Notes under the pieces: generated by a model
Databases searched by the model: none
What the model was told of the DNA's origin: nothing
The model's input: only the letters and a program-made list of their open reading frames with translations
Made by a program: the position numbers and the translations under genes
Origin: Bacteroidales bacterium
GTDB taxonomy: Bacteria; Bacteroidota; Bacteroidia; Bacteroidales; VadinHA17
Reading direction: 5' to 3'
Length of the DNA stretch: 52,323 bases
Assembly: GCA_025358455.1 (NCBI GenBank)
Contig: JANYJP010000127.1
Coordinates: 1 to 52,323 of the forward strand
Shown: positions 21,813 to 35,504 of the stretch, one piece after another
How the letters are laid out: each line of letters begins with the position of its first letter
Position numbering within the stretch: the first letter of the stretch is position 1

Positions 21813-24800
21813 ATGATGGGAAAAGGTACACTAACGATATACAGCGCCTCGGCAGGATCTGGTAAAACCTACAAACTTACGGGTATTTACCTTACAACCC
21901 TTTTCACATCGAGGTTCAGCTACAGAAGGATTCTTGCAGTGACGTTTACCAACAAAGCCACAGCAGAAATGAAATCGAGGATCCTTGATAACCTTCAAAA
22001 GCTGGCTGTTGGCGAAAACTCTGAATACCTCGGGGGATTGATAAAAGAAACAGGCAAAACCGAAGAATGGATAAGGAATGAGGCAAAGGAGATTCTGAAT
22101 TCAATTCTGCATGATTTTTCAAGGTTCTCTGTAACAACAATTGATAGTTTTTTTCAGAAAGTACTTAGGGCTTTCGCAAGGGAGGCAGGACTTCATTCCG
22201 GATTTAATATCGAGTTGGATCATAGTGAAATACTATCTTCTGCAGTAGATGAAATGATAGCTTCCGCATCAGACGATGTTCAACTGAAGAACTGGCTGAC
22301 TACTTATGCTTTATCCAATATTGATGAAGAGAAAACATGGAATCTGAAAGCCGGAATTGTAACTCTGGCTGGAGAAATATTTAAAGAAAAATTTAAGATA
22401 CTCTCAAACTCTGAAAGGTCCAATCTTGAAAATAAAAAATTCCTTCTCGGTTATATAGAAAAAATTAAATCAGTATCCTCTTCATTTGAAAAGAAGATGG
22501 TTGAATACGGGAATATCGCCATGATGATATTCTCCACTTTTGAACTTACTGATGATATGTTCTACCACAAGGCACAGGGAGTGCCTAAGTTCATAAGATC
22601 ACTTGCCGGTGGTATAATTCCTGTACCAAACAGTTATGTTCGTGAGGTAATGAAAGATCCGCCCCGCTGGTCAACCGGAGCGGCTGCACCGCAGCTAATG
22701 GCCGCAATTAACGATGGACTGGAAAATATACTTAGAGAAGCACTTAATTTTTACGATGAAAATATAATTGCTTACAATAGTGCAAAGGCCGTACTTTTAA
22801 ACATTTTTGCGCTGGGCATTTTATCGGATGTGTCGTATAATGTTCATAAAATAACGACATCGGAAAACAGTTTTCTTCTTTCTGATGCAGGTGAGCTTCT
22901 TAACCTTATTACTATGGGAGATCAGTCTCCCTTTATCTATGAAAAGGTTGGGAACAGGTACGAAAATTACATGATTGACGAATTTCAGGACACTTCAACA
23001 ATACAATGGAATAATTTCCGGCCGTTGATCGAAAACAGTATGGCAGAAGGCTTTGATAATCTGGTTGTCGGTGATGTCAAACAGTCAATCTACAGGTGGA
23101 GAAACAGCGACTGGCAAATACTTGGAGTGGAACTCGATGGCATGGTGGACAATGACCGTATTACCAGTCGGCCATTAAAAACAAACTGGAGGAGCTTTTC
23201 TAACATCATACAGTTCAATAATACATTGTTTACAATCATTCCTGAACAGGTTGATCAGACTCTTACCAACGAGGCTCTGCCCGTGAGTTTTAAAAAACTA
23301 TATTCTGAGGCAGTGCAGACGGATCCCGGAACAAAGCCAGGTGGATATGTCAGACTTGAATTCATCGAAAATGAAAAGGAGAAAAACTGGCAGGATACTG
23401 TTCTTGAACGAATTCCCGCTATCCTGGAATCATTTCAGGATAAAGGCTATTCTGCATCAGATATCGGAATAATTGTGAGAGACGGGAAGGAGGGTGCCAG
23501 TGTATTGAAGACGATTATCGATTATTCAAATAATTGTCATGAGCAACGTCGTAAGATTTATAACTATAATGTCGTCTCAAACGATTCTCTTTTGCTGTCA
23601 AATTCCCATGTTATAAATTTCCTGATCGCAGTCATTTCGGTAGTTAATAACCCTTCAGATATGATAAGCAGGGCAGCAATGTTAAGATTCTACCTTCTTG
23701 CAACCGGAAATGAAAATGCAGATAAAGCCACCCTCATCAGCGATAATCTTATAGAAGGGTCGCGGAATTATTTTCCTGAAGGTTATAAACACTTACTTGA
23801 ACAGATCAAACAAATGCCTTTATTTGAGGCAATTGAAGGAATCATTTGTTTTTTTGGTTTGGGAGAATATTCGTGGAATGTAGCCTATCTTAATACTTTT
23901 CAGGATTATGTAGTAAGTTTTACCGGGAATAAGAATTCGGATATTCAATCTTTTCTCGACTGGTGGAAGATAACCGGTAAAAAGAAATCAGTAGTGCTTC
24001 CCGGAAACCAGCAAGCAATGAGAATTCTTACAATTCATAAATCCAAAGGCCTTGAATTTAAAGTGGTGATCCTGCCATTTCTATCCTGGAATCTTGATCA
24101 TATACCTTCCAAACAGCCTGTGTTGTGGGTTAAACCTTCTGAACCTCCTTTTAATGAACTTGGAATAGTTCCCATAAGGTATGGCAAGGAATTATCCAAC
24201 ACAATTTTTGCAGAATATTATAAGGAAGAAAAATACTCTGTTTACCTTGATAATATAAATCTTTTATATGTTGCCCTTACCCGTGCCAAAGTTGCTATTT
24301 ACGGCTTTTCTGTTAATAATCCACGATCAGAAAACTCGATTGCGGGTATTTTGAAGAATGCAATTAGTAATAATTCAGGCTTTGTTTTAGAATCAGGAAT
24401 AGCCCTGAACAATCTGTATAATGATGAAAGTCATGTGTTTCAGTTTGGTGAGGTGCCTGTGACCAAAAAAGAAATGACTGAAAAGATTGGTCTATCCTCT
24501 TCAGTATACAGGGTAAGTCAGTCGATGGAATCTTTGAAACTGAAATTACACGGAGAGAATTATTTCTCCTCCGGTGATATGGCATTAAGGAAAAAGATAA
24601 ACTATGGAAAGCTTATGCACGAGGTATTCGAAGGCATTAATTCCTCTTCGGATATTCCCTTAGCAATCCGTAAACTGGTTCTGGAAGGCAAATTACCTGA
24701 GGAGGAAGCATGCGAAATCGAGAAAAAGATTCATACGCTGCTCAGTTTACCGCAGGTTGCAGAATGGTTTAATCCGAAAAATGAAGTTTTGAAGGAGGCC

Positions 24801-25013
24801 GGAATATTACTAACCTCCGGTTCTACAAAAAGACCCGACAGGATAATTTTTAAAGACGGTAAAACCATAATCATAGATTTTAAGTTCGGGGAAGAGAATG
24901 ACCATTATATTGAACAGGTCGATCTTTATCGCCGTTTGCTTCTCGATATGGGATACAATAATATAGAAGCTTATATCTGGTATGTTGATAAAAATAAAAT
25001 AGTATCTGCTTAG
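21813..25013 (+). CDS. addA: AddA/RecB-like helicase-nuclease (UvrD family)
   Basis: A 1066-residue superfamily 1A helicase with a C-terminal nuclease. Walker A is SAGSGKTYKL at the N terminus. TFTNKATAEMK is motif Ia, DEFQDTST is Walker B, VGDVKQSIYRWR is motif III, ILTIHKSKGLEF is motif V and LYVALTRAK is motif VI. The C-terminal RecB-type nuclease has GKLMHEVFE and RPDRIIFKDGK...IIIDFKFG. It should form the AddAB double-strand-break resection complex with the nuclease gene at 26074. Start is ATG at 21813 or the adjacent ATG at 21816. Its stop codon abuts the next start codon. Confidence 0.92.
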   Translation: MMGKGTLTIYSASAGSGKTYKLTGIYLTTLFTSRFSYRRILAVTFTNKATAEMKSRILDNLQKLAVGENSEYLGGLIKETGKTEEWIRNEAKEILNSILHDFSRFSVTTIDSFFQKVLRAFAREAGLHSGFNIELDHSEILSSAVDEMIASASDDVQLKNWLTTYALSNIDEEKTWNLKAGIVTLAGEIFKEKFKILSNSERSNLENKKFLLGYIEKIKSVSSSFEKKMVEYGNIAMMIFSTFELTDDMFYHKAQGVPKFIRSLAGGIIPVPNSYVREVMKDPPRWSTGAAAPQLMAAINDGLENILREALNFYDENIIAYNSAKAVLLNIFALGILSDVSYNVHKITTSENSFLLSDAGELLNLITMGDQSPFIYEKVGNRYENYMIDEFQDTSTIQWNNFRPLIENSMAEGFDNLVVGDVKQSIYRWRNSDWQILGVELDGMVDNDRITSRPLKTNWRSFSNIIQFNNTLFTIIPEQVDQTLTNEALPVSFKKLYSEAVQTDPGTKPGGYVRLEFIENEKEKNWQDTVLERIPAILESFQDKGYSASDIGIIVRDGKEGASVLKTIIDYSNNCHEQRRKIYNYNVVSNDSLLLSNSHVINFLIAVISVVNNPSDMISRAAMLRFYLLATGNENADKATLISDNLIEGSRNYFPEGYKHLLEQIKQMPLFEAIEGIICFFGLGEYSWNVAYLNTFQDYVVSFTGNKNSDIQSFLDWWKITGKKKSVVLPGNQQAMRILTIHKSKGLEFKVVILPFLSWNLDHIPSKQPVLWVKPSEPPFNELGIVPIRYGKELSNTIFAEYYKEEKYSVYLDNINLLYVALTRAKVAIYGFSVNNPRSENSIAGILKNAISNNSGFVLESGIALNNLYNDESHVFQFGEVPVTKKEMTEKIGLSSSVYRVSQSMESLKLKLHGENYFSSGDMALRKKINYGKLMHEVFEGINSSSDIPLAIRKLVLEGKLPEEEACEIEKKIHTLLSLPQVAEWFNPKNEVLKEAGILLTSGSTKRPDRIIFKDGKTIIIDFKFGEENDHYIEQVDLYRRLLLDMGYNNIEAYIWYVDKNKIVSA

Positions 25014-25988
25014 ATGTCAGTAACTAACAAACAGAACAGGGTCTACCCGTGGGGACATGAACGCAGGTTCAATGCCTACTCCAATTATTTCAGGGGGATC
25101 TATGGAGCACGTGTTCAGAAAGTTTCGATCGATGCCGGATTCTCTTGTCCGAACCGCGACGGGACAATAGCATCAGGAGGCTGTACATATTGTAATAATG
25201 ACGCGTTTAATCCTTCTTATTGCACAACTGATAAAACCGTATCGCAACAGATTGCTGAAGGCATAGAATTTCACAAATGGAGATATAATGAAGCGGTCTC
25301 ATATTTAGCATATTTCCAGGCATATTCAAATACATATGCGCCTCTCACAACCCTCAAAAAACTATACGGGGAGGCCTTAAGTTACCCGGGTGTAATCGGA
25401 CTTATTATAGGTACCCGCCCAGATTGCATAGATGATGAAAAACTTGCTTATTTAAAAGAGTTGTCCCGGGAGGTTTATATTGCTGTTGAGTATGGAATAG
25501 AATCTTGTTATAACAAAACTCTTGCAAGGATCAATCGTGGTCACTCGTTTGAAGATGCTGTTTCGGTGGTTAAAAAAACCGCTGAACTTGGAATTAATAC
25601 AGGGGCCCACTTTATATTCGGATTACCCGGGGAGACAAGAGAAGAAATGTTGAATCAGGCTGAAATAATTTCTTCCCTTCCTATTAAAACAGTTAAGTTT
25701 CACCAGCTTCAGATAATCAAGGGAACGAGGATGGAAAAGGAATATCAGGATAATCCTGATGATTTTGAGCTTTTTAAGTGGGAGGAATATTTAGATTTCT
25801 TTATCAGTTTCCTTGAAAGACTCAATTCTGCAATTGTAGTGGAAAGATTCACAGGCGAGGCGCCACCACGGTTTCTGACAGGAGTGGGATGGGGTAAAAA
25901 ACGATCCGATCAGATCGTAAGCCTTATTGAAAAACGCCTCGAAGAACTTGATACATGGCAGGGTAGGCTGTATCAAGACAAAAGATAA
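25014..25988 (+). CDS. TIGR01212-type radical SAM protein (YhcC-like)
   Basis: A 324-residue radical SAM protein. The motif CPNRDGTIASGGCTYCNN supplies the three cluster cysteines in the extended CxnCxxC spacing typical of the YhcC/TIGR01212 group. GTRPDCIDD, YGIESCYNKTL and GLPGETREEM are further family blocks. The reaction is not known to me. It begins on the base after the addA stop and lies between addA and addB, so it is part of that transcript. Confidence 0.9.
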   Translation: MSVTNKQNRVYPWGHERRFNAYSNYFRGIYGARVQKVSIDAGFSCPNRDGTIASGGCTYCNNDAFNPSYCTTDKTVSQQIAEGIEFHKWRYNEAVSYLAYFQAYSNTYAPLTTLKKLYGEALSYPGVIGLIIGTRPDCIDDEKLAYLKELSREVYIAVEYGIESCYNKTLARINRGHSFEDAVSVVKKTAELGINTGAHFIFGLPGETREEMLNQAEIISSLPIKTVKFHQLQIIKGTRMEKEYQDNPDDFELFKWEEYLDFFISFLERLNSAIVVERFTGEAPPRFLTGVGWGKKRSDQIVSLIEKRLEELDTWQGRLYQDKR

Positions 25989-26073: not shown

Positions 26074-28971
26074 ATGACGTACTTTCTCGAAAATATTGCA
26101 CAATCACTTCTTAAGGAGTTTGGAAATACCCTTAATCGTCATTGTCTTGTTTTTCCAAATCGTAGAGCCGGATTATACTTCCTGAAATACCTGGCAGCAA
26201 GAATTGAAAAACCGGTATGGGCTCCATCTGTATTAACAATTAATGAACTATTCAGATCATTTTCTTCAAAGCAGACCGCGGGAAATGAAATACTTCTATT
26301 TGAGCTCTATAAGGTTTACCGCAAAATTAAAAAACCACCCGAAAGTTTTGATGACTTTTATTTTTGGGGCGATATGCTGTTAAATGATTTTGATGATGTG
26401 GACAAGTATCTGGTTGATGCATCTCTTTTATTCCGCAATGTTAAGGATATTAAGGCTATAGATCAGCTATTCGGCGGTTTGACTGACTCCCAGAGAGACA
26501 TTATCAGGAGGTTCTGGATAAATTTTGAGTCAGGCAAACAAACAAGTGAAAAAGCAGGATTTATAAGTATATGGTCAGTGCTTTATGATCTCTATTCAGG
26601 TTTCAGATATTCGCTTACTGAACAAAATCTTGCTTATGAAGGAATGATCTTCAGGGAACTTGCAGAAAATCCTGAAAAGGATCTGATAGCAGGCAACCGA
26701 TGGGATATGTTACATTTCATAGGTTTCAATGCATTGAACGAATGTGAGAAGGTGATAATGACAAGGTTTAAAAAAGCAGGGAAAGCCCGTTTTTACTGGG
26801 ATTATGACAATTCGTATATTAAGGATAGTAATCTCAACTCTGCCGGCTATTTCATGCGGAATAATCTTAAAGTCTTCGGAAATAATATGCCTGCTGACTG
26901 GAGTTATGATACGATGCTAAATTCATTTCCACCTAATGTCAGACGTCGGGTTATTGAAACTTCATCTGACGTTGCCCAGGTTAAGCTTATATCGCAATTG
27001 ATTGATGAGCTGCCCGGCCTTACATCAGGAAATGCCCATCATACTGCCGTTGTTCTTGCTGATGAGAATCTCCTGATGCCTGTTCTGACAAGCCTGCCTG
27101 AAAATATTGGTGATATAAACATCACTATGGGACATCCTTTGAAACATACACTTGTTTACACTCTTGTGAGGCATATTATGGATCTTCAAAGGAGAGCTGT
27201 TTTTACTAATCGTGTCGCGTGGTTCAATTTCCGGGATGTGTTAAGTATCCTCAGACACCCATTGATGGAAGGTTTGTTTGCTGAATCGGATAGTATACTG
27301 ATTAGTGAATTATCAAAATCAACCAGTAAATGGTTATCATCTGAACGATTGGTCGATTCTGAAAATCTTTCATGGATATTCAGAAAACCTGAAAACACAG
27401 CTTTACTTTCTGATTATTTTAAAGAAATTCTTTCGCTGATAGCTCTGAATGATGTATCATCTGATAAAAACCTTCCAAATAATCCGGTTCGGCGAAGTAT
27501 ACTGAATGAATATATTTACAGGATTGTATTATCAATTAACAGACTGGAATCTATTGTCAGGAGCCCGGAAGTTACTATGACTACTGATACTTACATAAGG
27601 ATTCTTGACAGAATGTTGAGAATTCAGTCTGTTCCGTTTTCAGGGGAACCATTATCGGGGGTTCAGGTTATGGGCATACTTGAAACCAGGGCTCTGGATT
27701 TTAAGAATCTGATAATTCTTTCAGTAAATGAGGGTGTTTTACCTGCTGTTTCTTCAGGTTCGTCATTCATCCCGTTTAGTTTGCGTGAAGCATTTGGACT
27801 ACCTTCCATAAATCACCAGGAATCAATTTATGCCTATCACTTTTACCGGCTTCTTCAAAGGGCAGAAAATGTGACTTTTACCTATAATTCCAACTCAGAG
27901 GGATTAAGAAGCGGAGAAATGAGCCGATTCCTTATTCAGATGAAGTATGACAAAACGCTCAGACCTGAATTTCTGAATCTGAGTTTTGAGATAAAATCAA
28001 ACACTGGAATAGGAGAGGTACTTGAAAGGAATGAAGAACATTCCCGGCAGCTTAGGTCTCAGTTTATTAATAAGGATAAAGGAAGAATATTATCACCTTC
28101 AGCCATAAATACATGGTTGAATTGCAGGATGAAATTCTATTACCGTTATGTTAACAGGCTACAGGAACCTGACAAAGTCTCTGAAGATATTGATCCTGCA
28201 ATGTTCGGAAATATTTTGCACGAAATAATGAGGAGTCTTTACACGGGTTATAAAGGTCAGATTATAACCGGAGAAATTCTTGATATGATCACCTTCAATA
28301 AAGTTTTGCTGCAAAGTGCTATTGATCAGGCTATCAACGAAAAATTCAAAGACGGTACTGTTGGATTGATAACAGGAAACGAACTGATTGTAAGGGATGT
28401 ACTGATGGCTTATCTGTTAAGAATCCTTAAGGCTGATAAAATTTTCAGCCCGGTTACTATTCTACATCTTGAGGATCAATTCAGTTTTAATATAAGTACT
28501 TTGAGTGACGGAACCAATATTGACGTCAGGATAGGGGGAATGGTCGACAGGGTTGATGTTATTAATGGGGTTACCAGAATTGTAGATTACAAGACAGGAA
28601 ATGTTTCTGAAACAATTGGCTCAATTGGCGATCTCTTCACTGAAGATCGAAAAAAAGATTCTGACGGATGGCTTCAGACATTGCTTTACTGCGAAGCTTA
28701 CATGGCAACTGATCAGCCCTCTGTATTACGGCCTTCAATTTATAAAATTAAGAAATTAACCGGTGGTTTATTCTCCGACATGCTCAGGTTGAAAACAGAT
28801 ATCAGGAACGAATTGGTAGTTGATGATTATAACAAGGTGAGAGAGGAGTTTATTTATGGTCTCAAAGAAGTTATTTCCTTGATATTCAGTGATAATGAAT
28901 CATTCAAAATGACAACTGATATAAGGAGTAAATGTACATATTGTCCATACAGGGTATTATGTATGCGATAA
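26074..28971 (+). CDS. addB: AddB-like PD-(D/E)XK nuclease
   Basis: A 965-residue protein. The N terminus VFPNRRAGLYFLKYL and the middle region (ETRALDFKNLIILSVNEGVLP) are typical of AddB proteins with an inactivated helicase fold. The C-terminal nuclease shows GNILHEIMR, GGMVDRVDV...IVDYKTG and QTLLYCEAY. Four cysteines (one in WLNCRMKFYY, three in CTYCPYRVLC) fit the AddB iron-sulfur staple. Its partner AddA is encoded two genes upstream. Function: end resection for recombination repair. Confidence 0.9.
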   Translation: MTYFLENIAQSLLKEFGNTLNRHCLVFPNRRAGLYFLKYLAARIEKPVWAPSVLTINELFRSFSSKQTAGNEILLFELYKVYRKIKKPPESFDDFYFWGDMLLNDFDDVDKYLVDASLLFRNVKDIKAIDQLFGGLTDSQRDIIRRFWINFESGKQTSEKAGFISIWSVLYDLYSGFRYSLTEQNLAYEGMIFRELAENPEKDLIAGNRWDMLHFIGFNALNECEKVIMTRFKKAGKARFYWDYDNSYIKDSNLNSAGYFMRNNLKVFGNNMPADWSYDTMLNSFPPNVRRRVIETSSDVAQVKLISQLIDELPGLTSGNAHHTAVVLADENLLMPVLTSLPENIGDINITMGHPLKHTLVYTLVRHIMDLQRRAVFTNRVAWFNFRDVLSILRHPLMEGLFAESDSILISELSKSTSKWLSSERLVDSENLSWIFRKPENTALLSDYFKEILSLIALNDVSSDKNLPNNPVRRSILNEYIYRIVLSINRLESIVRSPEVTMTTDTYIRILDRMLRIQSVPFSGEPLSGVQVMGILETRALDFKNLIILSVNEGVLPAVSSGSSFIPFSLREAFGLPSINHQESIYAYHFYRLLQRAENVTFTYNSNSEGLRSGEMSRFLIQMKYDKTLRPEFLNLSFEIKSNTGIGEVLERNEEHSRQLRSQFINKDKGRILSPSAINTWLNCRMKFYYRYVNRLQEPDKVSEDIDPAMFGNILHEIMRSLYTGYKGQIITGEILDMITFNKVLLQSAIDQAINEKFKDGTVGLITGNELIVRDVLMAYLLRILKADKIFSPVTILHLEDQFSFNISTLSDGTNIDVRIGGMVDRVDVINGVTRIVDYKTGNVSETIGSIGDLFTEDRKKDSDGWLQTLLYCEAYMATDQPSVLRPSIYKIKKLTGGLFSDMLRLKTDIRNELVVDDYNKVREEFIYGLKEVISLIFSDNESFKMTTDIRSKCTYCPYRVLCMR

Positions 28972-29041: not shown

Positions 29042-30790
29042 ATGGTCACAGGGTATTCAAATTATCAGATAGAGGTAAAAAACGTTAAGTTCATTGCCGA
29101 CGATGGCAGAACTTGTCCCCGGACTGCGATTGTAACATTCAACAATGAGGAAGGTGAGGAGATTGGTTCTGAATTATTTGGAGCTATCGATATTAACCAG
29201 ATTTATGAAATGATAAAGGAGGGCAGGGATATAATTCTGGATAATTATTATATTCCTGAATTCTCTCTTTCTTCATACAGGCGGCATAATGGAATTGATA
29301 AAAAGGAACTGGTCAGATTTAAAAGTTTTTCTGCGAAGGGTGCTTTTTTTGAAGCCAGGGCTTGTACTGATTTTACTTATTCATCATTTTCCGATGGCGA
29401 GGTAACCTTTGACAGTAGTCATTTTGCCAAAGGTAAAGTACTTTTTAATGGTTCTGTTTTCGGAAAGGGGAATGTTATTTTTTCAAATACTCTTTTCAGA
29501 AACGGCAATATTGAGTTTACAGGGTCCGTCTTTGGTGAGGGAGATTTCATGTTCAAGAATGCTATTGTAAAAGATGGCGTAAAGGATTTCCAGGATATTC
29601 AGTTCGGAAATGGAGAAGTCAGCTTTGCAAATACCGAATTTAACAGTGGGGAGCTTTTGTTCATTAACACCCGTTTTAATAGTGGAAGATTTAATTTCAA
29701 GATAACAAGGATAACCGGAGGTAAAGTTGATTTTCACTATTCAGTGTTTGGCGATTGTGAAATAATGTTTGAAAGAACTGAATTCGGAAATAGCAGGGTT
29801 GACTTCCGAACGGTTGATTTTGGCTCAGGAAGAATAAATTTTAACCGTTCGGTTTTTGGAAATGGCGAAGTTAATTTTGAGGGTGCCTCTTGTAAATCAG
29901 GTAAAATTCAGTTTAAAAAGGCTGAGATGGGCTCAGGTCCAAAGAATTTCAACCTGATGGAAATGAATGATACCGACATAAGCTTTGAAAGGACCGAGTT
30001 TGGTGATGGCGATGTAAGCTTTTATGAATCAAAATTTCATGTCATTTCTCTAAAATCCTGTCATCTCGATCATTACTTTGATCTCCGGATTTCGAATGCC
30101 GATGTGCTCGATGTTTCCGATACTATTGTGCGTGATATTGTTGACCTTGAACCTTATGATTTCCCTGTTCAGATTAAAACACTTGACATGTCAGGGATGA
30201 GACTTCTCGGTAAACTTTATATTGACTGGAGACACAACAAGTGTAATGAGATCATAGTTAACCAGGAAGGAACAACTTTACGACAAAAAGCCGAACAGTT
30301 CAGGATTCTCAAAGAAAATTTCAGTGGCACAGGTAAATACGAAGACGAAGACGAGGCCTATATTATGTTCAAACGTTATGAAGCAAAATCATGGCTTACC
30401 GAACAAAGGGAAAAAGGCGGAATTACAAAAGTCGCCAGTTATGTTCCTCATGGTTTTCAATGGCTTGTGTTTGATAAAATAGGGCTTTATGCGACCTCTC
30501 CGGGAAGGGTTCTTCTGAGTGTGGTTATATTCTGGGTATTTTTTGGATCAATCTTTTTTGTTATTGATTTATCAGGTCTTGGAAAAACAGTATCTGCCGT
30601 TGGCAATCCTGATCATATGTCGGCCTTTCTTCAGTCGTTCTACCATAGTGCAATTACGTTCTTTACTATTGGATACGGAGATGTTTATCCGATGGGACTG
30701 AGCCGTGTGATTTCCGGTCTTGAGGGATTCATGGGAGTATTTATGATGTCATACTTTACCGTAGCTTTTGTACGGAAAGTTCTCAGATAG
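29042..30790 (+). CDS. 12-residue-repeat solenoid fused to a 2TM potassium-channel pore
   Basis: A 582-residue protein. Residues 116-331 are 18 uninterrupted repeats of 12 residues with the pattern F-G-x-G-x-V-x-F-x4; the first position falls at 116, 128, 140 and so on to 320 without a single insertion. A linker follows with a charged, helix-prone segment (412-455). Residues about 488-508 and 557-577 are membrane helices flanking a pore helix and the selectivity filter TIGYGD (542-547). This is the KcsA/Kir-like 2TM layout, so a K+-selective tetramer is expected. There is no signal peptide; the solenoid should be cytosolic. The spacing is not the pentapeptide-repeat spacing. I do not recognise a named family for the solenoid. 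It converges on ribH with a 2-bp gap. Confidence 0.85.
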   Translation: MVTGYSNYQIEVKNVKFIADDGRTCPRTAIVTFNNEEGEEIGSELFGAIDINQIYEMIKEGRDIILDNYYIPEFSLSSYRRHNGIDKKELVRFKSFSAKGAFFEARACTDFTYSSFSDGEVTFDSSHFAKGKVLFNGSVFGKGNVIFSNTLFRNGNIEFTGSVFGEGDFMFKNAIVKDGVKDFQDIQFGNGEVSFANTEFNSGELLFINTRFNSGRFNFKITRITGGKVDFHYSVFGDCEIMFERTEFGNSRVDFRTVDFGSGRINFNRSVFGNGEVNFEGASCKSGKIQFKKAEMGSGPKNFNLMEMNDTDISFERTEFGDGDVSFYESKFHVISLKSCHLDHYFDLRISNADVLDVSDTIVRDIVDLEPYDFPVQIKTLDMSGMRLLGKLYIDWRHNKCNEIIVNQEGTTLRQKAEQFRILKENFSGTGKYEDEDEAYIMFKRYEAKSWLTEQREKGGITKVASYVPHGFQWLVFDKIGLYATSPGRVLLSVVIFWVFFGSIFFVIDLSGLGKTVSAVGNPDHMSAFLQSFYHSAITFFTIGYGDVYPMGLSRVISGLEGFMGVFMMSYFTVAFVRKVLR

Positions 30791-30792
30791 AA

Positions 30793-31281
30793 TTATTTCT
30801 CAATATCGCGCAGCAGGGCCGCCATTTTTATAGCAGTCACAGCTGCTTCATCGCCTTTATTTCCATGTATGCCTCCTGATCTGTCAATAGCTTGCTGCTG
30901 TGTACGCGTGGTCAGAACGCCAAAAATAAAAGGAATATTATATTCCATATTAAGTTGGGTTATTCCCTGAGTTACCCCCTGACAAATGTATGTAAAATGA
31001 GGTGTTTCGCCCTGGATCACACAACCCAGACAAATTATTGCATCCATATCATCGTATTCTGCAAGGAACTGAGCACCGAGAGTAAGTTCAAAGCTTCCCG
31101 GAACATGTTTGATAATAATATTCTTATCAGAAGCGCCATGTTTTTTCAAAGTGGCGGCAGCGCCGTCCATTAATGACCATGTAACTTCTCTGTTCCAATC
31201 AGAAACTACAATACCAAATCGCATTTTACCAGCATCCGGAACACTATCCGGATCATAGTCAGATAAATTGGAAGTGCTCAT
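30793..31281 (-). CDS. ribH: 6,7-dimethyl-8-ribityllumazine synthase
   Basis: A 162-residue enzyme that makes the riboflavin precursor lumazine from the pyrimidine and dihydroxybutanone phosphate. Conserved blocks are [36 protein letters not shown] (with the catalytic His) and GVLTT with the C-terminal GNKGDEAA. It is probably co-transcribed behind the TPR gene, as commonly seen in Bacteroidota. No FMN riboswitch is visible. Confidence 0.95.
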
Positions 31282-33755: not shown

Positions 33756-35504
33756 CTATTTGATAATGTAACTTCCCCGGGAGATGCTGATATGTTGTGA
33801 TAACGCTTTATGTGAAATGAAGTGATAGTTGCGTCCATCGCAAGTTAAAACAACTTTTTTGTGGTCGATTTCAATTAAAACTGTAGAAGTATTATCATTA
33901 TGCATCAGAAAATCAGCGAGTAACAAAGCTTTTTCGATTCCGTCACCTCGCTTGAAGTTCCAGACTTCATCAGGCAGGGCTAACCTCTTTCCGTCATAAA
34001 TTGATTCATCAGGCAATGTTTTAAGAATATTCAGGACTTCTTCTGTTGTTTTTCCTTCAAGATCGGTGAAACAGACCGGGTTTCGCTCGATTGCTGCCTT
34101 TATGAACGGACGCCAGTCGATCTTATCCATCTGCCGGTAAGCATAAAGAGCCAGTTTAGCTTGTTCTGACTTATCCGAATGCTTGTTTATGAGAGATATA
34201 ATTTTTTCGCGGCTGTCATCAACGGTTATCTGAAGCCTGTCGGTAATTTGATATTCCTTTCTGGAATCCGGAATCTTCGGATCAGTGAAGATAAAATCGT
34301 TCAGATCAATAAACATTTCACGAATGATATCACTGAATTGAATACCGGCGGCTACAATAAATTCAAGTTCAAGATCATAGAGGGTTTCAACCGGGTGTGT
34401 ACTCAGTATATCTTCAATATCATTAAGCAGTATTTTTCCCTGTATCGGACTCAAATGAAAATCATCTCCCTCAATTTCTTTTACCAGCATTTCGCGAAAC
34501 TCAGGCGCCACACTGAATTTACTGTTGTGCTCGTATTCAAACATTTTTTCGAGCAATATATACCTCTTGGTTCCGGCACTGTCGTATTTGTATTGAAAAA
34601 GAGTTTTATATTTTGATTTAAAACGCAGGAAATTAATGAAAATAAGATTGGTTAAATCTGTTACCAGGAATTCTTTAAGTTTTATAGCAAAATGATCATA
34701 TGCCTCCTTGTTAATGGTTGCTTCATTATACAGGGTATGGATATAGCCTGAAATATGGGAGACAATTGTTACTTTCTCGTTTTCCATAGCACGGCGGGCT
34801 CTTTCTGACAGTGAGGTTCCGTTGTACCACATATTCTTTGTTACTATTCTTCGGTTATTGGTGATTAAGCCATCCTTTTCCATAATGAAGTTCTGCGAAT
34901 GGAGTGGGGTGGCTATGAGAAATATCTTTTCCAAAGGCACTTTTCCGACAACAAACATTGCGGATGCATATAGAGCTGACAACGAAACACATTCTCCTGC
35001 ACCTGTGGTAAATTTATCTTTATGCCTGAAAGCTCCCATCGCCTCAATAGTCTCAGTTTTCCAGTAAGGAATAATATCAGAATCAAATTTGTCGAGACCA
35101 AAATGTTTCCTTATGTCGATATCGAAGTAATATTTGTCTCCTTCATAACCAAAGAGAGCATTTGATTGCTTTAGCATCTCCATGTCGAAAAAATCACTGA
35201 ACCTTGCTATTTCAGCTGTTTTAGAAGTCAGCCCCCATGTTGACAGATCCAGGTTGAACACATAGTTCTGTATTATATATTGCTTTATACGGTTAGCTTT
35301 GGTAGTGAAGCTCTTCTTATCAATATCTTTAAACCAGGGATCTTCTCTCCATTTCCATAATTCAGGGGACATTATATCAGCAAGAATAAGCGGGTAAAAA
35401 AGATCCGGAAAAATAAAGATCTCCATATCTGAAAGGGTAAAAGCCGATGAATACTTTTCTAAAGTTTTTCTATCGGAAAAGTCTTGTTCGAATATTGAAT
35501 CCAT
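33756..35504 (-). CDS. Uncharacterised protein with transglutaminase-like domains
   Basis: A 582-residue protein that I cannot name. Residues about 165-215 read TGAGECVSLSALYASAMF...PLHSQNFIMEKDG, which fits a transglutaminase-like Cys (172), His (202), Asp (211) triad. The last 65 residues (from 518) repeat the layout as RGDGIEKALLLADFL...DHKKVVLTCDGRNYHF, with Gly522 where the Cys would be, so this copy would be inactive. There is no signal peptide or membrane helix. Between them is a helical region. It is flanked by convergent dciA and by ndk upstream. Confidence 0.6.
   Translation of the reverse strand: MDSIFEQDFSDRKTLEKYSSAFTLSDMEIFIFPDLFYPLILADIMSPELWKWREDPWFKDIDKKSFTTKANRIKQYIIQNYVFNLDLSTWGLTSKTAEIARFSDFFDMEMLKQSNALFGYEGDKYYFDIDIRKHFGLDKFDSDIIPYWKTETIEAMGAFRHKDKFTTGAGECVSLSALYASAMFVVGKVPLEKIFLIATPLHSQNFIMEKDGLITNNRRIVTKNMWYNGTSLSERARRAMENEKVTIVSHISGYIHTLYNEATINKEAYDHFAIKLKEFLVTDLTNLIFINFLRFKSKYKTLFQYKYDSAGTKRYILLEKMFEYEHNSKFSVAPEFREMLVKEIEGDDFHLSPIQGKILLNDIEDILSTHPVETLYDLELEFIVAAGIQFSDIIREMFIDLNDFIFTDPKIPDSRKEYQITDRLQITVDDSREKIISLINKHSDKSEQAKLALYAYRQMDKIDWRPFIKAAIERNPVCFTDLEGKTTEEVLNILKTLPDESIYDGKRLALPDEVWNFKRGDGIEKALLLADFLMHNDNTSTVLIEIDHKKVVLTCDGRNYHFISHKALSQHISISRGSYIIK

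Follow-up and report, generated by a model that had tools for sequence, protein, structure and literature searches.

A gene coding for a 582-aa protein was identified on the forward strand of the window, the whole stretch of 52,323 nucleotides from a Bacteroidales bacterium which was analyzed here. It probably encodes a stand-alone ligand-gated K+-type channel of the HalA build, in which a cytosolic solenoid crown would gate the pore. HalA is the DNA-gated effector channel of the Hailong anti-phage system (PDB 9nyi; NCBIfam NF051894). It binds oligodeoxyadenylate, which holds the channel shut, and its partner HalB is a nucleotidyltransferase. The observations behind this reading are the repeat, the solenoid model, the order of the parts, the likeness to HalA and the pattern of conservation. 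The gene comprises the following parts:

29042..30790, forward strand: whole gene of the 582-aa solenoid-crowned 2TM channel (open reading frame, Pfam, AlphaFold)
29042..29314, forward strand: N-terminal cap, mixed alpha/beta, residues 1-91 (DSSP of the AlphaFold model)
29387..30034, forward strand: 18 repeats of 12 residues, residues 116-331, about nine predicted coils of 24 residues (periodicity, AlphaFold/DSSP)
30035..30241, forward strand: irregular beta coils, residues 332-400 (DSSP)
30242..30484, forward strand: helical linker, residues 401-481 (model, invariant columns)
30500..30574, forward strand: first pore-domain helix, residues 487-511 (Pfam, model)
30623..30667, forward strand: pore helix, residues 528-542 (model)
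30665..30682, forward strand: selectivity filter TIGYGD, residues 542-547 (translation, alignment)
30698..30784, forward strand: second pore-domain helix, residues 553-581, with the conserved end VRK(I/V)LR (alignment, model)

The repeat rod and its relatives

An earlier note on this DNA had described 18 repeats with an exact period of 12 over residues 116-331, and this period was borne out. In residues 101-350, 66 identities were counted at lag 12, where 2000 shuffles gave 17.7 on average and 33 at most (z 12.3), with lag 24 at z 11.8 and a further peak at lag 36. The five-residue period of the pentapeptide class was not found, as lag 5 reached a z of just 2.4. Phenylalanine recurs at a spacing of 12 from F111 to F327, at 19 places with none missing; the longest such run in 2000 shuffles was 10, with single misses allowed. 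The consensus given in the note was also right, being strongest for F at position 8 (18/18) and G at position 4 (15/18), followed by F at position 1 and V/I at position 6 (13/18 each), and weakest for G at position 2 (9/18).

That the repeats form a solenoid is supported by the AlphaFold prediction, which was built on 26 sequences and has a mean pLDDT of 88.6 and a pTM of 0.76. In blocks of ten residues, the pLDDT is 92-97 over residues 91-330 and 58-92 over residues 401-582. The strands of the rod show an autocorrelation of 0.74 at period 24 vs. 0.36 at period 12 and should therefore be arranged with two repeats per coil, giving about nine coils for the 18 units. Beyond the rod, the model continues with irregular coils up to residue 400 and four helices up to residue 481, followed by the pore.

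The pore itself, which the note had placed directly behind the repeats, was confirmed by a match to Ion_trans_2 at residues 494-580 (E 3e-11, 43.5 bits, Pfam cut-off 22.5). The filter T(I/V)G(Y/F)G(D/E) was present in all 30 family rows counted and reads TIGYGD in the 582-aa channel. The direct succession does not hold, since residues 332-481 intervene and about 155 residues separate the repeat rod from the 2TM pore. For the N-terminal cap no Pfam match was obtained in the 582-aa channel; among the 35 family rows, UB2H (at the N terminus of L055), Ssb-like_OB and DUF3857 each matched weakly in a single row. A scan for promoters and terminators gave counts close to those of shuffles.

The note's separation of the repeat from the pentapeptides is not supported. 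Pentapeptide_3 (PF13576) matches 16 of the 35 rows of the channel family at E ≤ 0.01, the best at 2.9e-16, and the L055 protein reaches 37.9 bits at a cut-off of 27. The 582-aa channel itself gave no PF13576 match at E ≤ 10, and its best pentapeptide match in Pfam is Pentapeptide_4 at E 9.1. A tblastn search against plasmids matched 110 records, 68 of them from Streptomyces, and the matched feature was annotated as 'pentapeptide repeat-containing protein' in 36 of the 40 rows listed. Two Streptomyces proteins have the 12-residue unit in the same register as the channel rod, match PF13576 at 5e-29 and 7e-36, and show no channel match. A new repeat class was thus rejected, as Pfam files the same unit in Streptomyces proteins under Pentapeptide_3. 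Streptomyces plasmid proteins with long, near-perfect 12-residue repeats (L105:2353-3999 and L107:2479-4038) carry, judged by eye, two hydrophobic segments at the N terminus before the repeats, and recombinase genes are located close by.

Furthermore, two haloarchaeal proteins combine PF13576 and Ion_trans_2. Neither the repeat nor the kind of fusion is therefore new, since both exist in Streptomyces or haloarchaeal proteins. According to the note, its reading would fall if the repeats belonged to an already well-described family fused to a channel in this way. This applies by half: the kind of fusion is known, and a literature search of limited coverage on pentapeptide channels and 12-residue solenoids yielded nothing on point. 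The gene family is probably a new one within a known kind of channel, in which a pentapeptide-type solenoid is joined to a 2TM channel in a HalA-like build. The particular feature of the 582-aa channel is a near-perfect 12-residue rod joined to a channel pore.

Distribution of the family and its insertion site

The solenoid channel is well supported as a real family, with matches at E ≤ 1e-3 in 26 of 60 related genomes. Within the genus, the full-length channel was found in 17 of 36 genomes, including the own one, and a further genome has a piece of 76 residues; the other genomes of the order show long matches in 3 of 24. In 5 genomes just the pore or the pore end matches. The search of genome contigs yielded 29 loci, all titled as MAGs of Bacteroidetes, Bacteroidia or Bacteroidales. 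In the class sample, 198 of 395 genomes match at E ≤ 1e-3 and 26, including the own one, have a long match at E ≤ 1e-130; the other matches listed cover the pore or the linker and pore, besides further pieces of genes with long matches. In the phylum sample, 4 of 395 genomes match at E ≤ 1e-10, with a long match in the own genome only.

The period is kept throughout, with lag-12 z values from 8.1 to 15.0 across 30 rows. These rows represent 29 distinct proteins, and the 35 rows of alignment A5 represent 34, because L056 and L060/L108 are one gene. The 30-row sets omit L065 and L073 (the genes also contained in L113 and L121), which were missed by the pore pattern; both have TVGYGD and lag-12 z values of 12.2 and 13.4, respectively. 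The length of the rod differs by whole units, with 84 additional columns (7 units) in L020 and 24 fewer (2 units) in L056. Alignment A5 includes the L048 row, which was entered without its pore, so that Ion_trans_2 is counted in 34/35 rows and no pore column is invariant. For this reason, linker and pore were compared on alignment A2 with 12 rows. The alignments leave out L052, L053, L042 (start uncertain) and L058 (fragment). In L052 and L053 the channel gene appears split over two frames, by sequencing error or decay.

In the window, the channel gene is surrounded by the following genes:

21813..25013, forward strand: RecB/AddA-like helicase (context; linked in genus-type loci only)
25014..25988, forward strand: MnmL radical SAM protein (301.9 bits, cut-off 180)
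26074..28971, forward strand: AddB-like PD-(D/E)XK nuclease, ending 70 bp before the channel
30793..31281, reverse strand: ribH-like gene, bordering the insertion site from the other side (named by eye)

Both the AddA-like and the AddB-like gene stay under their NCBIfam cut-offs, and recF was, like ribH, named by eye. The gene mnmL, related to tRNA modification, lies between the addA-like and addB-like genes here as well as in related loci. A gene on the reverse strand (33756-35504) codes for another 582-aa protein, for which Pfam gave no match at E ≤ 0.001, and stays beside recF in those genus-type loci whose contig reaches there.

The addB gene is located upstream of the channel on the same strand in all 24 loci with a contig long enough to include it (L031-L052, L054, L057), adjoining it in 23 and lying about 1.8 kb apart in L039. 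The ribH gene follows the channel in 25 of 25 loci, L058 included. In 32 more distant loci (L053, L055, L056, L059, L108-L135), of which L056 and L108 are one contig and several have short flanks, none of the neighbors from the window was found in the stretch examined. Besides the channel itself, no neighbor family is common to more than 5 of 30 loci.

Of the 18 genus genomes without a long channel match, 15 yielded addB, on 17 pieces. In 10 of these pieces ribH directly follows addB without a channel in between (L170-L174, L176-L178, L180, L181), and L175 and L182 contain neither channel nor ribH in the stretch examined. In the remaining 5 the contig ends at or shortly past addB. When the presence of the channel is mapped on a tree built from 32 AddB proteins, it requires 6 changes, compared to a mean of 9.4 after shuffling (a value this low was reached in 5 of 500 shuffles). 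L031, which has the channel, is the sister of L170, which does not. The tree comprises the window, 20 of the 24 channel loci and 11 of the 17 channel-less pieces, with AddB frames of more than 900 aa; owing to long branches (L050 with L180) and open forks, the number of changes is approximate. In the genus, the channel gene is accessory and was gained or lost about six times at a fixed site flanked by addB and ribH.

Possible function of the crown

In alignment A2, 17 of 81 columns are invariant in the linker and 30 of 101 in the pore domain, compared to 26 of 216 in the rod and 5 of 69 in the irregular coils. The linker is thus nearly as conserved as the pore, which fits the expectation for a coupling element. 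Across 35 rows, its invariant residues are Q408, Q419, L423, K424, G431, Y433, E436, D437, Y440, and R445. In the middle of the rod, positions 235, 245, 256, 264, 268, 269, 288, and 292 are basic in at least 80% of 30 rows and are interleaved with conserved acidic ones. These positions could form a putative binding surface or salt bridges between the coils.

The N terminus of 2TM channels usually faces inward. No signal peptide was visible by eye in the 582-aa channel, and the rod precedes the first pore helix, so the rod should be cytosolic and is probably situated on the inner side of the membrane. Each subunit would then begin with a cytosolic N-terminal cap and continue through a long pentapeptide-related beta-solenoid and the conserved helical linker to a 2TM pore, which carries the K+ filter. 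As in HalA and other 2TM channels, such subunits would by analogy assemble into a tetramer whose four solenoids form a cytosolic crown. A cytosolic ligand could bind this crown and the signal would pass via the linker to the pore. The cytosolic side, the tetramer, the conduction of K+ and the gating by the crown are what we infer from the observations above. HalA is the top structural match of the channel model, by a clear margin, and through this likeness the gating device proposed in the earlier note becomes a likely role of the rod.

The main rival is a solenoid which serves as an anchor or scaffold, positioning the channel or recruiting a partner, with the pore gated otherwise or constitutively open. 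The change of rod length by whole repeats is spacer-like, and such repeats occur in the two Streptomyces proteins without a channel match. However, the linker between rod and pore comes close to the pore in conservation, and the structural match to HalA covers the end of the rod, the linker and the pore together. A scaffold is rather unlikely. The whole-unit changes in rod length offer a natural series for the question of gate vs. spacer.

An anti-phage effector like HalA was considered as well, in which the crown would be kept shut by an oligonucleotide until the channel is freed by nuclease attack or degradation of DNA, so that growth stops. The likeness to HalA, the gains and losses at one site, the eight basic positions in the middle of the rod (235-292) and the location behind a RecB/AddA-AddB-like nuclease pair in the genus-type loci are consistent with it, but the basic positions are interleaved with conserved acidic ones and the searches for the Hailong proteins gave no match over the cut-offs. 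The HalA model NF051894 (cut-off 250 bits) gave no match for the 582-aa channel at E ≤ 10 and none in its own genome. It matches one of the 35 family rows at E 0.0057, and 10 of 15 chosen genomes holding the channel at E ≤ 10, none of them over the cut-off. Weak matches to the HalA model occur in 202 of the 395 genomes sampled across the phylum, all of them below the cut-off, and also in 5 of 14 control genomes. HalB was sought in the own genome only (95.7% complete), where NF051895, a model which weakly matches 12 of 14 control genomes, reached at best 22.9 bits at a cut-off of 190. Membership in the Hailong system was rejected, as the channel did not reach the HalA cut-off and its own genome gave no HalB over the cut-off.

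The neighbors do not point to defense either. Ten upstream neighbors were chosen from loci of other families. Eight of them match Pfam families of an ordinary kind (asparaginase twice, PorP/SprF, thioredoxin-like, EamA, TerC, response regulator, 2-oxoacid dehydrogenase), the remaining two lack a Pfam match, and PADLOC gave no hit at E ≤ 1e-5 for any of the ten. The 582-aa channel itself has neither a PADLOC match nor a match to a phage record. An anti-phage effector is thus unlikely. The AddA-like protein matches the GajB helicase models of PADLOC, best at 1.8e-29, which is taken as a likeness among UvrD-type helicases and not as a sign of a defense system. A mobile or phage gene was rejected, as no phage record matched and the neighbors examined are ordinary.

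A more far-reaching reading would be a group of chromosomal nucleic-acid-gated K+ channels without a dedicated synthetase. Their long crown would directly bind oligonucleotides of the cell or single-stranded DNA, read the turnover of the cell's own DNA (in this genus beside AddAB) and alter the membrane potential upon a shift in this turnover, for instance during phage attack or DNA damage. This seems improbable; if it were true, HalA would be a shortened, specialized branch of a wider class of solenoid-gated channels. Finally, joint work with AddAB, with the channel transcribed after addB and reporting DNA end processing or nuclease products, would fit the upstream addB-like gene in 24 of 24 loci and the gap of 70 bp in the window, but addA and addB were absent from the stretch examined in all 32 more distant loci and close relatives keep addAB without the channel, so that such a partnership is very improbable and, being unseen beyond the genus-type loci, was rejected as a general rule.

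Comparison with known channels and repeat proteins

If the channel is gated by a solenoid crown, the crown-gated pore of HalA is no one-off but a member of a wider class with pentapeptide-type crowns, with members in Bacteroidia and, less regular in form, in haloarchaea. Its stand-alone channels would offer a concrete set in which further cytosolic ligands could be sought and the origin of HalA examined.

A second channel family was observed in the class (L089-L095, L097, L098, L101, L102, with L088 being the gene of L090). By eye, its N terminus is mostly signal-peptide-like; behind it come an irregular beta domain, a hydrophobic segment, a polar stretch and finally the pore, which has TLGFG or TLGYG. 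A genuine signal peptide would place the beta domain on the outer side of the membrane, opposite to the arrangement in HalA. In one member, L092, the HalA model gave a match at E 0.028. A 517-aa protein (L099:695-2245, the gene also being in L086) has a different N-terminal part and a TLGYGD pore, and possibly represents a further type of crown.

By sequence, HalA was not found among solved structures with profile A3, L099, the L092 linker piece or the Haloarcula protein, some of these searches covering the best 60 rows only, mostly channel pores. With VIA-align and the full model, HalA was not among the best 50 rows. Positions ~42-130 of the HalA model pick up pentapeptide proteins, four of which were inspected and are Qnr-like by eye, and therefore the HalA crown seems to be pentapeptide-related too. 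The weaker NF051894 matches examined also come through pentapeptide-like positions.

According to the model, the channel shares with HalA the fold and the order of beta crown, linker and 2TM pore. It differs in its length (582 aa compared to 338 model positions), in its much longer rod with a 12-residue period, in lacking a family-level sequence match and in a genome without HalB. With the 2TM channels Kir, KcsA and NaK it has the pore fold and the filter in common. Channels of this type are not known to have a solenoid, and the large cytosolic domain of Kir comes after the pore. With the pentapeptide-repeat proteins (PF13576) the family shares the 12-residue unit and register of the two Streptomyces proteins, and 16 of 35 rows match. 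The coil of pentapeptide helices comprises 20 residues, whereas the channel rod has a period of 12 instead of 5 and a modeled coil of 24. The proteins of Haloarcula (WP_324760430) and Halorarius (WP_255152795) likewise unite Pentapeptide_3 and Ion_trans_2 in one protein and in the same order, but they are only ~23-24% identical to the 582-aa channel, have less regular repeats and are encoded beside other neighbors.
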